Assembly (NCBI GenBank): GCA_011319805.1
Contig: SJRY01000228.1
Coordinates: 310,001-374,000 of the forward strand
Reading direction: 5' to 3'
Origin: Macrocybe gigantea
Taxonomy: Eukaryota > Basidiomycota > Agaricomycetes > Agaricales > Callistosporiaceae
DNA length: 64,000 nt
Part shown: piece by piece, positions 4,356 through 42,169 of the stretch
Layout: the number at the start of each line of letters is the position of its first letter
Position numbering within the stretch: position 1 is the first letter of the stretch
Notes under the pieces: model-generated
What the model was told of the DNA's origin: nothing
Database searches by the model: none
What the model saw: the letters and a program-made list of their open reading frames with translations, nothing else
Program-made: the position numbers and the translations under genes

Positions 4356-5057
4356 GAGACGTTGTGTTCTTTTTCTGCATCAGTCTGTTTTGTGCCTCAC
4401 ACTCCTCAATCGGTATTTTCCTAGGTTTGTTTCGCATTCCTAGCTGCGAACAGACGTTGGCATGCAACGCACGGAACTGAAACAATGCGCAGTCGATTAA
4501 TCATTACACTGGAGATGAATGTGATTTCATCTACGATCACGTGTTGAACAGCATTCTTATCAATCATTACTAAAAATAGCCTTGACGATCCTTCCCGTGG
4601 GGACTCGGATCCCTTCAACACATTGGCATTGCTCGTAAATCAGACACCTTCAACCTATCATCCATTCACCTCCACATTCTTCTCGTTAGTGACATCACAT
4701 CGTGGCTATGCGCTGTGTTTCTCTAGCTCGCGGTCAAAGTTGAGAGGCAAGGTGATGTGATGAAAGGTTGTCAGGGCAGCCCGAAGCTCATGCATACGTG
4801 GCAAGGGTCTGGGTGTAGGAGTCCCATCCCCTATTACACAACTCTCACTAACTTCGAGAATATGGCAAACAATTTTTTCAAGGAGCCAGAAACGGTGTAC
4901 TGCAAGCTTTTTACGACAAGGCACGCGACGTACGACGAATTCTGAGCCGTAGTGGGGGCACAAAGGCGGCCTTTGAGGATCCGAATGAAGAACACAAAAC
5001 AAGAGCAGTTACGTAAGGCGCCGATGACTCAAGGAGCGGAGTTTGAATATGGAGGGG
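4356..5057. other. Intergenic, tRNA to TBP gene
   Basis: About 700 bases with no coding exon that I can support. Short open frames here on both strands have no family resemblance. The right end holds the TBP promoter. Confidence 0.6.
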
Positions 5058-35218: not shown

Positions 35219-37401
35219 CTACGCGAGAGCAGAGATGACGGCGCTATACGCAGGTTTGGGTTGATAGTTCCTATCGAAAAGAGTGGGTTGTCACTAGAGC
35301 GCCAAGAGTTCTAAGGCGCAAAAAAAGAAGAGATTCTGGATTAAGATTGTCTCCCAAAACCAGCAGGAAATGACTCACGGCGTCGCTGACACCCCAACTG
35401 GTAATACCAATGCAAGCGGGTACAGCCAAGCACGCCTTCACGACGTGGTGTAATCATTGGCGGACGCCTGGACGATATCGAGCTCGGTGATGGCGACTTC
35501 GGACACTCCAGAACCTGCAAGAGCAGTCAACGCTGCTTGAGCACCACCGGCTCCGCCAGCCTATTGCAGGGGAGAAAGATATATCATGTTCAAATCCCTA
35601 GCTAACAGCGTGCTTACTCCAAGGTGCATCTGAGTGCCAATGCCATCAATGTAGCGTGTTCCAGAGTTGATGCGCTTGACGAGGTTGACCATGCCTGGAT
35701 GGCGAAAGTCAGTGAGTGGTACATGCATTGTCGATTACGGCTTCTGAACTGACCTTGAACCTTGGCATTGTTAGAGTCAAGGTTGTAATCATTGATGTAA
35801 AGCCTGTTCACATGGGCAAAGTCAGGGAGCAGGGCGCTGCGCCACGGACGCTAGCCTCACTTGGCCGTGGAATCGGCGCTCCTGGCGGCTTGGAACGCAA
35901 TCGTAACGAAGGACTGGAAACGTCAGTCGAGTGATCTTGAATGCAGTCGATGAGGGGCAACGCACTTCACCCAAGACGTTGTAGAAGACACTTGAGCGCA
36001 GGGAACCGTCTTCGTTGAGAATTTCGCTGGCGAGATGTGAGATCCAGGTATGAAGTGGGACAGGAAATTAGAAGCTCACTTGCAGACGTCCCACTAGATA
36101 TTGGGAGCAAGTGTTAGCACATCTTTAGGCCCTATTCCCGTCCGAAAGATTTTAACGAAACCAACGTACAGCTATTGACCAGGGGGTCAGGTCCGGGGTC
36201 CATTACTTAGATTGATTAGCTCACCGTATACCTTGCCCTTATATCGGCCAGCAACATTGGCAATGTGATTTTGTATGACAGATGTCTTGAAAGCCGATTA
36301 TCAGTGAAATAATGTCTTCCTTCACCTTAAACGCCATACCAAAGTGGCTTGGTCGCCGATTGACGAGACCCAGGAAGGCAATTGCGAATGCCATACTGTG
36401 AAAACGAAACATAAGACACCCCAAGAAATGATGCAGAAAATGGGAGCCATACCAAGAGTGTGGCCTCGAATCAACTTGCCATTGGAGGTTGCCCAGTTCG
36501 CAAGAGTGTCAGCGTTGCCAAACGTGAACACACCCCTGGTGCCTATACAATGTTTGAGGGTTGTTTATGAGTTCCTGGAAAATAAAGGCGTTACTTTCCG
36601 TTGCATCCCACTGATTAAGGAGGTCAGCGGTCGCGTAAATGATAAGGACAGCTCAGTCATTACTTTCATGGAATTTTCCTACGAAAAATTTCAGTTTGAG
36701 ACGGATGCATGGAACAAAATCAGAATACATACAGGAGTAACTTGGCCGAACTCCGATTTTAGAATCGCAGCATTGGCTTTTGTAAAAGCATACATGAGGT
36801 TTGCGAGGACAGTATGCCTGTGAACGAGGCTGACCAGCGATGTTAAGGGTGTTGGGATCAGCGCATGAGCCCTTTTGATTTGAATGTCAACTACGATGTG
36901 CTCCAAGGTACTTGAGTGTACATACCCAATATTTCTTCCCTTTAGCCTGGAATTTCGTGCTCAGGCCACTCAGTCCAGTCGAAGTAGGGGGTGCAGACGT
37001 CGTAGTCGCAGAGCCCGGTTGGCATCTACATGGCGATAAAATTCGATTAATTGGACATGTGTCAACGATATGAGTTATGGCTTACTGGGAGTAGTAATCA
37101 TTAACGTAGATACAGGTACTACCGGCATCACCTGGCAGATAGCATGACCCATTATCTACCGTCCTTCGCACTGGGATCCATACGCACAGACAGTCTGCGA
37201 TATTAGTGAGCGTTGAAAGTGCGGGAACGAAAAAATGATCACTTACACTGCCAGTGTAGCCGATGCCACCACCTGGAAATCTGATTGTTAGACGTGGAAG
37301 GGCGGGACTGGAGCGTGAACTGTACATTGTCCCCAGACAGCCACTGCAGCAGCGCGATGGGCAGCGAGAGCGAGAGCTACGAAAGTATAGAGCTTGAACA
37401 T
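35219..37401 (-). pseudogene. GH10 endo-1,4-beta-xylanase, copy 1, with two single-base deletions
   Basis: Secreted xylan-degrading enzyme in origin. It starts MFKLYTFVALALAAHRAAA (signal peptide), then a CBM1 (AVWGQC-GGIGYTGS), linker, and a GH10 barrel with FGQVTPENSMKWD, LIRGHTLVWHSQLP, acid/base WDVCNEIL and nucleophile [10 protein letters not shown]. Compared with copy 2, one base is missing in the ANDYTT codons (about 35443-35447), giving a premature TGA at 35438-35440, and another in the [10 protein letters not shown] codons (about 35279-35285). Roughly the last 55 residues of the barrel are lost unless these are sequencing errors. The unshifted stop would be at 35219. Contains a 2-nt microexon at 36170-36171. 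Confidence 0.8.
36170..36171 (-). other. 2-nt microexon (CT) in xylanase copy 1
   Basis: The exon ending at 36225 finishes AAG-GTA-TAC-G; the exon starting at 36093 begins TGG-GAC-GTC. Joining them directly breaks the frame. Two bases, CT, flanked upstream by a 53-nt intron ending AATAG and downstream by a 76-nt intron beginning GTACGT, restore Y-A-W-D-V, the expected GH10 sequence. The same arrangement exists in copy 2. Confidence 0.75.
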
Positions 37402-39367: not shown

Positions 39368-39993
39368 ATGACGACAGTTTATGCTAGAATACCCCCGAAG
39401 GTGTGCTTTGAGATTGCCACACGTTATAATGCTAACGTACGTAGAATAGTCTCAGAAGAGAAGCGCCCATACCGTCCTGCTCGACACAAACACCTTCCAA
39501 GCAATTGGAAGACGAGCGATCACTATTATCTCTACGGCTGGGCAGTGACGAACAACATTCTCCGGGACTACATTAGCAGTATCAACATGCCAAGAATCAG
39601 CGAGGATGACGAGATTGGGATCATTTCGTCTGCGATTTTCTACATGCCACAAGACATCGGATTCCATCGTCTCAACTGTGTACCAGGCAAGGTTGACACC
39701 GAAGCCGCGGTGAAGGGCAGAGTAATTCAGAATGAAGAAGGGGTGATGCTGAATCTGCTTGTCATCGGTTGTACGCGGTCGAAGAGTGTCCGTTCTTGTT
39801 CCGCGGCGCGTTCAAACTGACCGCCTTTCGTTCTCGACCACAAGAATTCAACAATCCGGCCCATCTCTCGGCTGAATTCGTCAAGCGAGACGGACTCAAA
39901 CCACTGGGTCAGCAGTCATTTCGATTTCGAAATAAATACACAAATATCAAGCCATGTCGAATTTCTGTGGCGAAATTTATTGAGAGAAATTAA
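39368..39993 (+). pseudogene. Hypothetical ORF with an apparent frameshift
   Basis: From an ATG at 39368 the frame reads MTTVYARIPPKVCFEIATRY, HKHLPSNWKTSDHYYLYGWA, IGIISSAIFYMPQDIGFHRL and GVMLNLLVIG, then stops at 39820 after a serine/arginine tail. Near 39770 another frame takes over with YAVEECPFLFRGAFKL and continues to 39993 through FNNPAHLSAEFVKRDG. No intron fits the switch, so a one-base indel is the simplest reading. No family recognised. It overlaps the 3' end of xylanase copy 2 on the opposite strand. It could be a decaying gene or a sequencing error. Confidence 0.45.
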
Positions 39994-42169
39994 GCAAGGG
40001 CAGAAATGACAGCGTTATATGCTGCCTTGGGCTGGTAATTCCTGTCAAAGAGAAGTGGATTGTCTCCAGAGCGCCAAGAATTCTAGAAGAGAAAAAAAGA
40101 AAAGGTCTCGGAATAGGTTACAAAACTGAGAAGCAGCAAAATGACTCACGGCATCGCTGACACCCCAACTGGTGATACCGACGCAAGCTGGAACAGCCAA
40201 GCAGGCTCTGGCGACTGTGGTGTAGTCGTTGGAAGAAGCCTGGGCAATATCGAGCTCGGTGATTGCAACTTCAGAGACACCAGCACCAGCAAGTGCGGTC
40301 AGTGCGGCCTGGGCACCCCCAGCACCGCCAGCCTGTTAGAGTGCACAAAAGAGATATGTCAAAAGTTCATGTAGCATAGACGGTGATGTTCGTACTCCAA
40401 GATGCATCTGTGTACCAATTCCATCAATGAGCCTGCCCGATGCGTTGATGCGCTTGACAAGAGCAACCATGCCTATGAACAAGAATCAGCGTCATGATAC
40501 AGATCGGCGCTCGCAACGGTTCAACAGACCTTGAACCTTTGCATTGTTGGAGTCGAGGTTATAATCGTTGATGTAGAGCCTATTTTCCGTTTGTAAGTTA
40601 GAGCAAACTCTGGCTCCAGGATGCCACCCTCACTTGGCATTAGCATCGGCGCTTCTTGCAGCTTGGAACGCAATAGTGACGAAGGACTACAGTAAAGCAT
40701 GAGATGCATGATTCTAACTTGTATTCCAGAAATCGATGACACACTTCGCCCAGGACATTGTAGAAGACGCTCGAGCGTAAAGAGCCATTCTCGTTAAGAA
40801 TTTCGCTGATAAACGTCAGTTACAAAGAGTCGTTTAAGATCCAGAACCTGTGAAACGTACTTGCAGACATCCCACTGTTAGTTTCGTAACAAATGTGTTA
40901 ATCAAATTCATCCTATTGACTAGCATACGAAAACATACAGCTAGCAATATAATCCTTCGTCAAGGGCGTTCAACATCAGAAGAAAAGAGCGGCATACCAT
41001 AGATCTTGCCCCGGTATCTACCAGCAACATTGGAAATGTGATTTTGAATGACAGAAGTCTTTCAGAGGGATGATTAGCTCTGCAAACACGTTCCTTCGCT
41101 GGCTCACCAAGGTATTTCTATCGCTGATTGATGAGACCCATCCAGGTAGCTGGGAATGCCATACTGTGAGGTGCAATGAACACAATCAGTTGTATTGAAG
41201 GCAGCGATTAATGATAGGACTCACCAAGAGTGTGTCCACGAACAAGCTTGCCATTGGACGTTGCCCAATTCACAAGGGTATCAGCATTTCCGAAATTGAA
41301 AACTCCCCTAGTGCCTATGCGAAATTCAGTCGTTTTGTTTTTTCGAGCGTTGAAGGAGTGTGGAAACTTTACTTTCTGTTGCATCCCACTAATTCTCAAA
41401 ATTATTTCATGCATAAACAGATCACTGACAAGGATTAATGATTACCTTCATGGAGTTTTCCTACAGAAAGTTCAGACAGGTTGTGCATATGTGAGATATT
41501 AGACCACGTACAGGAGTAACTTGGCCAAATTCCGATCTCAGGATGTTGGCATTTGCTTCGGTGAAGGGTTTGAGCTCCAATAAGAGGAACGTTTGTCGCG
41601 AAAATACTGACCAGCAATGTTAAGCGTGTTGGGATCAGCGCACGAGCCCTTACGGGGATCTACATCAACTACAATACACAGCTAGGGGATATCAGGTGAC
41701 GTACCCAATATCTCTTTCCTTTAGACTGGAATCTCGAGCTCAAACCACTGAGTTGAGTTGACGCAGGAGGTGTGGATGTTGCGGTCGCAGTTGCAGAGCC
41801 TGGTTGGCACCTACGGACGGATTAGAAATATTCAGTGGTAGCACGAAGTGCACACACTGAGAGTAGTAATCATTGACGTAAATGCAAGCGTTGCCGGCAT
41901 CGCCTAAGGTGCATCACGATGTATCATCAAACATCGAAGGCAGTGCTTTCCGTACGTACAAACGGTCTATGCTTGTCGTTAGCGGTCGAACCAAGGAACG
42001 AAAAGTGGTCCTTACACTGCCAGAGTAACCAATACCACCGCCTGCAAATCTAATCGTGAAGCATTGAACAAGGAAAGGCAGCATGAACCATACACTGTCC
42101 CCAGACAGCCACTGCGGTAGCACGTTGAATGAAGAGGGCAAGAGCTGCGAGAGAGTAGAGCTTCAGCAT
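39990..42169 (-). CDS. GH10 endo-1,4-beta-xylanase with CBM1, copy 2 (intact)
   Basis: Secreted endo-xylanase cutting beta-1,4-xylan in plant cell walls. [19 protein letters not shown] is the signal peptide; the CBM1 ([13 protein letters not shown]) is split by an intron inside the cysteine codon as in copy 1. After an S/T/P linker the GH10 barrel has [15 protein letters not shown], the acid/base in [27 protein letters not shown] and the nucleophile in AITELDI. It ends [20 protein letters not shown] with TAA at 39990-39992. About eleven introns, including a pair flanking a 2-nt microexon. No frame break found, so this is the likely functional member. Confidence 0.9.
40939..40940 (-). other. 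2-nt microexon (CT) in xylanase copy 2
   Basis: Exon ending at 40998 reads AAG-ATC-TAT-G, the next full exon begins TGG-GAT-GTC at 40874. A CT dinucleotide lies between a 57-nt intron (GTATGC...GCTAG) and a 64-nt intron (GTATGT...AACAG), completing the alanine codon of Y-A-W-D-V. Identical in size, sequence and position to copy 1. Confidence 0.78.

Follow-up and report, generated by a model that had tools for sequence, protein, structure and literature searches.

How short can a coding exon be, and what becomes of an enzyme gene that contains one of only two nucleotides? The question is raised by two GH10 genes on the minus strand of a window of Macrocybe gigantea DNA (the whole stretch that was analysed, 64,000 nucleotides), in each of which CT, an exon of 2 nt, is placed between two introns by spliced protein-to-DNA alignment. 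A sequence-only reading of this DNA had proposed that the Y-A-W-D-V-C-N-E segment can be made only if CT is included, and that inclusion could act as an on/off control of the enzyme. We arrive at a different view of the second point: CT is very probably a constitutive 2-nt coding exon whose flanking introns are removed one by one, conserved across the GH10 genes of Agaricomycetes and in many cases misannotated, rather than a switch.

The two window genes and the place of CT

The two genes have the following features, listed in the direction of transcription for each copy.

35444..37401, minus strand: copy 1, CBM1-GH10 gene as far as its frame break (in-frame TGA at 35438-35440)
36225..36285, minus strand: copy 1, 61-nt upstream exon with the 3′ terminus GTATACG
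36172..36224, minus strand: copy 1, upstream intron of 53 nt, GTGAGC..TAG, with a branch-point-like CTGAC 15 nt from its 3′ end
36170..36171, minus strand: copy 1, 2-nt exon CT, bases 2 and 3 of the Ala codon in Y-A-W-D-V-C-N-E
36094..36169, minus strand: copy 1, downstream intron of 76 nt, GTACGT..TAG, with a branch-point-like CTAAC 20 nt from its 3′ end
36080..36093, minus strand: copy 1, 14-nt exon TGGGACGTCTGCAA (W-D-V-C-N)
35966..36026, minus strand: copy 1, 61-nt exon with the rest of the Asn codon and the codon of the catalytic Glu (CGAAATT)
39993..42169, minus strand: copy 2, predicted CBM1-GH10 endoxylanase gene with 20 coding exons in the model (PF00331 364 bits, PF00734 46.6 bits)
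40998..41058, minus strand: copy 2, 61-nt upstream exon with the 3′ terminus ATCTATG
40941..40997, minus strand: copy 2, upstream intron of 57 nt, GTATGC..TAG
40939..40940, minus strand: copy 2, 2-nt exon CT
40875..40938, minus strand: copy 2, downstream intron of 64 nt, GTATGT..CAG
40861..40874, minus strand: copy 2, 14-nt exon TGGGATGTCTGCAA

All four introns around the CT exons (53/76 and 57/64 nt) are of the GT-AG type, and the coordinates, sizes and borders that the sequence-only reading had given for this region were right. In both copies CT is followed by the second intron and then by the 14-nt exon TGGGAYGTCTGCAA, and the junction TAY-G/CT/TGG is read as Y-A-W. With CT included, the copy 2 product has a GH10 domain at residues 76-367 (PF00331, 364 bits against a cut-off of 22.1) and carries both YAWDVCNE and ITELDI; we take W-D-V-x-N-E and I-T-E-L-D-I to be the acid/base and nucleophile motifs of GH10, respectively. 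The product that skips CT scores 135.6 bits, its match ending at profile position 121 of 311, and it stops before both motifs. Copy 1 as sequenced is broken downstream of the CT exon by the in-frame TGA, which follows NDYTTS; GH10-like sequence continues beyond it in another frame, which suggests either that the frame broke recently or that a base is in error. The last two exons proposed by the aligner for copy 1 (35379-35385 and 35247-35270) lie beyond this stop and were disregarded. Other small exons occur in the same genes, namely 15-, 16- and 14-nt exons in the GH10 part of both copies and a 7-nt exon in the CBM1 part (37188-37194 and 41960-41966, minus strand; in copy 2 it reads ACCGTTT and is followed by the donor GTACGT).

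The need for CT was assessed by enumerating solutions with one or two introns between the exons on either side (GT or GC donors, AG acceptors, minimum intron length 35 nt). For copies 1 and 2 this leaves the CT exon as the sole route to G-[KQR]-[ILVM]-x-[ASGC]-W, as the sequence-only reading had held for Y-A-W-D-V-C-N-E. Its further claim, of a frameshift just upstream of the catalytic acid when CT is left out, is also upheld: without CT the reading runs into KVYVGRLQRNS.. in copy 1 and KIYVGCLQRNS followed by a stop in copy 2, and WDVCNE is lost.

A 2-nt exon in all six GH10 loci found

A PF00331 profile search of the 41.2-Mb assembly returned at least 19 matches, grouped into at least six loci, and a 2-nt exon is present in all six of the loci found, three of which belong to class A and three to class B. 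The third class A paralogue (C251, L009) has the same CT and the same intron positions as copies 1 and 2 over the GH10 part, 14 introns having been aligned for copy 1 and 15 each for copy 2 and the third paralogue. The class B genes (C243) have the 2-nt exons TT, CT and TT in the contexts ATT-TAT-AGC-TGG, ATC-TAT-AGT-TGG and ATT-TTG-AGT-TGG. The expectation that the arrangement would recur in other GH10 genes was thus borne out within this genome, by the third paralogue and by class B exons displaced 5 nt upstream; its presence in other species would follow from the way in which gene models fail, considered below.

Enumeration in the additional genes leaves some choice. The third paralogue has three solutions that yield the motif, namely CT with the donor GTAAGT, a CT at another place that uses a GC donor, and an exon of 7 nt that gives L-C-C, and in B1 a second 2-nt solution exists (TC, giving I-H-S); the two solutions of the third paralogue that do not use GTAAGT and the extra one of B1 are the poorer ones. 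Chance was gauged from dinucleotide shuffles of the block, 4000 trials per gene. A usable in-frame AG-CN-GT arose in 1.6% (copy 1), 2.3% (copy 2) and 5.0% (third copy) of the trials; when a GTANGT donor was demanded in addition, the figures fell to 0, 0.025% and 0.05%. In class B, chance solutions were commoner, at 1.6-7.5%, or 0-0.125% with GTANGT.

Copies 1 and 2 diverged long enough ago for their introns to be saturated. Exons 2-14 are 81.8% identical (473/578), whereas the interiors of the 14 introns are 52.3% identical (392/750), as against 48.4% for non-homologous intron pairs. With exons and splice sites kept and the introns near background, the splice sites and CT have outlived the intron sequence around them. 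Over 192 codons dN is 0.075 and dS 1.2, a dN/dS of about 0.06.

The position of the unit differs between the two subfamilies. In the class A coding coordinate, the introns around the 2-nt exon follow nt 373 and 375 in class A and nt 368 and 370 in class B, so that the whole unit of two introns and exon lies exactly 5 nt further upstream in class B; intron 135 is common to all genes compared, and intron 810 to B1 and B3. In all three class B genes (L010, L003), a splice from AT to the Ser-codon AG (117-120 nt) is also possible and would remove two residues in frame. One tentative reading, which we hold to be possible though doubtful, is that the 2-nt exon arose twice at one active-site motif, or that the whole unit of intron, two nucleotides and intron shifted together, the Ser-codon AG of class B perhaps providing a natural variant of the enzyme. 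We know of no sliding model that readily gives a concerted shift of the complete unit.

Gene models, cDNA-like relatives and the fate of alternatives

Relatives of class A were taken from the best 120 of 5945 matches (68-87% identity) and those of class B from the best 120 of 6876, in searches that favour full-length ORFs; the closest named relative among the matches listed is from Tricholomella constricta, at 87% identity to the GH10 part of the third paralogue. Sequences known only from jgi or lgn contigs and reading through were classed as cDNA-like, by hand and from source tags and contig size rather than metadata; the contigs behind three of the 29 (P0113, P0187 and P0221) measure 4-5 kb, P0033, with both ncbi and lgn as sources, was placed among the genome models, and P0002 and P0045, which pass but have no contig given, were excluded from the comparison.

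The sequence-only reading had remarked that exons this small are rarely predicted by gene finders, and the relatives agree. In class A, G-x4-WD-x2-NE fails in 60 of 100 genome models and is intact in 18/18 cDNA-like sequences (p = 6e-7; best 120 of 5945 matches, with the models reading Y-G-W, P0027, P0048, P0080, P0089 and P0106, counted as passing). In class B, 46 of 109 genome models fail while 11/11 cDNA-like sequences pass (p = 0.006; best 120 of 6876), so that the motif is held by 29/29 cDNA-like relatives among the matches listed when both classes are pooled. The failing class B models listed include Tricholomella (Agaricales), Coniferiporia (Hymenochaetales), Heliocybe (Gloeophyllales), Trametes (Polyporales) and Leucogyrophana (Boletales). 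Among the same matches 40/100 class A and 63/109 class B genome models pass, and some of the relatives' genes may be without any microexon.

The fault is concentrated at the motif. Within the best 120 of 5945 class A matches, 49 indels fall into the best 11-residue window, which is that of the motif, compared with four in the next, and 45 of 100 models have an indel at the motif site compared with 16 anywhere else in the domain; within the best 120 of 6876 class B matches the corresponding figures are 39 against three indels and 38 against 11 models. Among the failing models listed, 27 of 60 in class A and 38 of 46 in class B keep the WDxxNE of the next exon, which places the fault at the 2-nt exon itself. 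A mere difficulty with small exons was considered as the cause of these failures and rejected, as just 2/100 class A models (best 120 of 5945) are disturbed at the 15- and 16-nt exons that these genes also contain; yet 33 of the 60 failing class A models in this set also lose the adjoining 14-nt exon, and one of the 33, P0111, fails at the next junction only. The string Y-A-V-[SRM], as expected of CT running into GTRAGT or GTACGT, occurs in 16 of the 360 listed relatives. From how the models fail and from this string we infer that the exon is exactly 2 nt long in other species too. All in all, the 2-nt exon looks real, old and frequently missed.

Could the exon nevertheless be regulated, with inclusion at times of demand for xylanase and, under other conditions, skipping that leaves a transcript out of frame and either dead or degraded? 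Loss of CT does put WDVCNE out of frame, and a regulated fungal microexon has a precedent in Xlr2 of Trichoderma virens (PMC11121469). A skip-isoform search, length-limited to shorter ORFs (best 120 of 439 matches), also retrieved one skip product, the Infundibulicybe gibba gene model P0243, which ends in ..GKLYVGCLQ, identical to the peptide that skipping would give in the third paralogue. However, P0243 is the sole match to the skip peptide pattern among 360 listed proteins, and no skip product is seen in the 29 cDNA-like sequences among the matches listed. P0243 is most likely an annotation error, since the cDNA-like P0003 (1224-bp contig), 97% identical to it over 201 aa, includes the exon and reads GKLYAWDVCNE. 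Moreover, the downstream donors are strong rather than weak, and the need for the enzyme alone accounts for conservation of the exon. We regard such a switch as improbable; the on/off control suggested by the sequence-only reading is unsupported rather than disproved.

It is more improbable still that CT is no exon and that another in-frame junction (K/W in copy 1, I/W in class B) leaves the motif two to three residues shorter. Copy 1 does offer a single in-frame intron of 138 nt, AAG/GTATAC..TAG, which drops V-Y-A and gives KGK-WDV, and use of the Ser-codon AG in the three class B genes gives QI- or KI-WDV, a product found in 16 of 109 class B genome models (best 120 of 6876). Against this, copy 2 has no alternative in-frame junction near the motif, the third paralogue has just poorer ones (e.g. 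KLYGKK-W with the donor GTTATT), and the product short of two residues appears in none of the 11 cDNA-like class B sequences from the same matches. In addition, both residues before W are present in the three solved GH10 chains whose alignments were inspected, out of 142 matched.

A still smaller chance attaches to the idea that the block is nested, as in a stwintron, or a recursive site of zero length, with nothing between the introns left in the mRNA. The two introns do lie almost back to back, as in stwintrons, but each has its own complete borders, and removal of the whole block shifts the frame in 6/6 genes. In a stwintron the inner intron interrupts a splice element of the outer one and nothing is retained, and a recursive zero-nucleotide site has AG directly followed by GT; here the order is AG-CT-GT, and CT is needed for the frame. 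No more credible is an accidental microexon in a decaying or misassembled locus: copy 1 has its downstream TGA and class B gene 2 seems, by eye, to lose frame just before ITELDI (L010, about 4360-4370, plus strand), frame breaks in two of six GH10 genes that may be assembly errors, but copy 2 and the third paralogue retain an intact CT block, three further genes have a 2-nt block, and dN/dS between copies 1 and 2 is low.

Proposed splicing of the unit, and other ultra-small exons

The reading of CT as a constitutive exon has to account for how the splicing machinery handles it. The donor downstream of the 2-nt exon is GTANGT in 6/6 genes, compared with 9/53 of the other donors of the six genes (Fisher p = 1e-4; the statistics omit eight introns at weak C-terminal alignment ends of class B, 2/10 in B1, 3/9 in B2 and 3/10 in B3). 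In 2/6 downstream, 1/6 upstream and 22/53 other introns, the interval 8-45 nt before the 3′ end contains no match to the YTRAY branch-point pattern. In the proposed mechanism, the two short flanking introns, each with its own 5′ and 3′ splice sites, would be removed in turn by an intron-definition spliceosome, and the two bases would stay in the mRNA to complete the Ala codon of Y-A-W-D-V-C-N-E. As the last two exon positions, CT would be unable to pair with U1, so that the intronic half of the downstream donor would carry recognition; this may be why that donor has been kept at GTANGT. The AG of the first intron would lie inside the U1 footprint on the second donor, and the two sites could thus hardly be bound simultaneously. 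The exon would be retained since its loss removes the catalytic half of the enzyme, and not as a switch. Inclusion in M. gigantea mRNA, the order of intron removal and the U1 argument are matters that we infer. The sequence-only reading had also seen a challenge for exon-definition splicing in an exon of this size; the challenge is smaller than claimed, given flanking introns that are short and have full borders of their own. One transcript-like ORF, P0247 (ena contig, 1028 bp), reads ..KIYAVSTLP, which fits a molecule with intron 1 out and intron 2 kept, the form expected of a splicing intermediate; it is a single case, and its start resembles the end of another GH10.

As an internal exon in the 1-15 nt range, flanked by complete introns and needed for the frame of a conserved motif, CT belongs with the ultra-small exons. 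Fusarium CYP621A has a 1-nt exon that has been called the smallest fungal exon described (PMC12940212); it is constitutive, as the GH10 exon appears to be, and likewise sits in a conserved enzyme motif, keeps the frame, escapes annotation and is flanked by short fungal introns. In contrast to that exon, which is 1 nt long, lies in an ascomycete P450 gene and is backed by RNA reads, the GH10 exon is 2 nt long and occurs at two places in two subfamilies, in 6/6 loci found. Conserved plant microexons include the 1-nt exons of APC11 (PMC4674806) and VPS55 (PMC8831610), the latter with a conserved GTRAGT donor (PMC8831610); wide misannotation and conservation between species, which is probable for GH10, are shared features, whereas the plant exons are 1 nt long, belong to other genes and have intron retention documented by RNA (PMC4674806, PMC8831610). 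Xlr2 of T. virens resembles the present case as a fungal microexon in xylan-related biology, but its inclusion is glucose-dependent and concerns a regulator (PMC11121469), while the GH10 exon gives no sign of regulation among the listed relatives. P450 genes of Phanerochaete chrysosporium, another basidiomycete, share many small introns and tiny exons; the shortest exon given in the excerpted text is 6 bp, and a conserved 2-nt exon does not figure there (PMC1184071). Stwintrons, or spliceosomal twin introns, described in several fungi (PMC9024468), are similar in having two adjacent introns and consecutive splicing; in the GH10 block, unlike in stwintrons, the splice sites of each intron are left whole by the other and two bases would remain in the mRNA.

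In the literature covered, no title or abstract opening describes a GH10 microexon, subscription journals lying mostly outside that scope and an older xylanase gene paper being a possible exception; searches for a 2-nt exon as a phrase gave matches that are unrelated by title. The GH10 genes add a 2-nt exon, recurrent in one enzyme family, to the few ultra-small exons known, and provide a natural experiment on the lower size limit of exons that a spliceosome working by intron definition can deal with. The motif failures (60/100 class A and 46/109 class B models listed) affect CAZyme catalogues, enzyme cloning and homology models, and the two displaced versions of the unit bear on how introns move or arise. 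Among the 120 shorter ORFs (best 120 of 439 matches), 71 have A-W-V-[SRGCYL] or a similar string, as results when an intron directly after TGG is translated; that intron lies 3 nt further downstream than the second one of class A. Named carriers include Pyricularia oryzae and Colletotrichum, and this read-through suggests that an intron near the motif may be older than the microexon.
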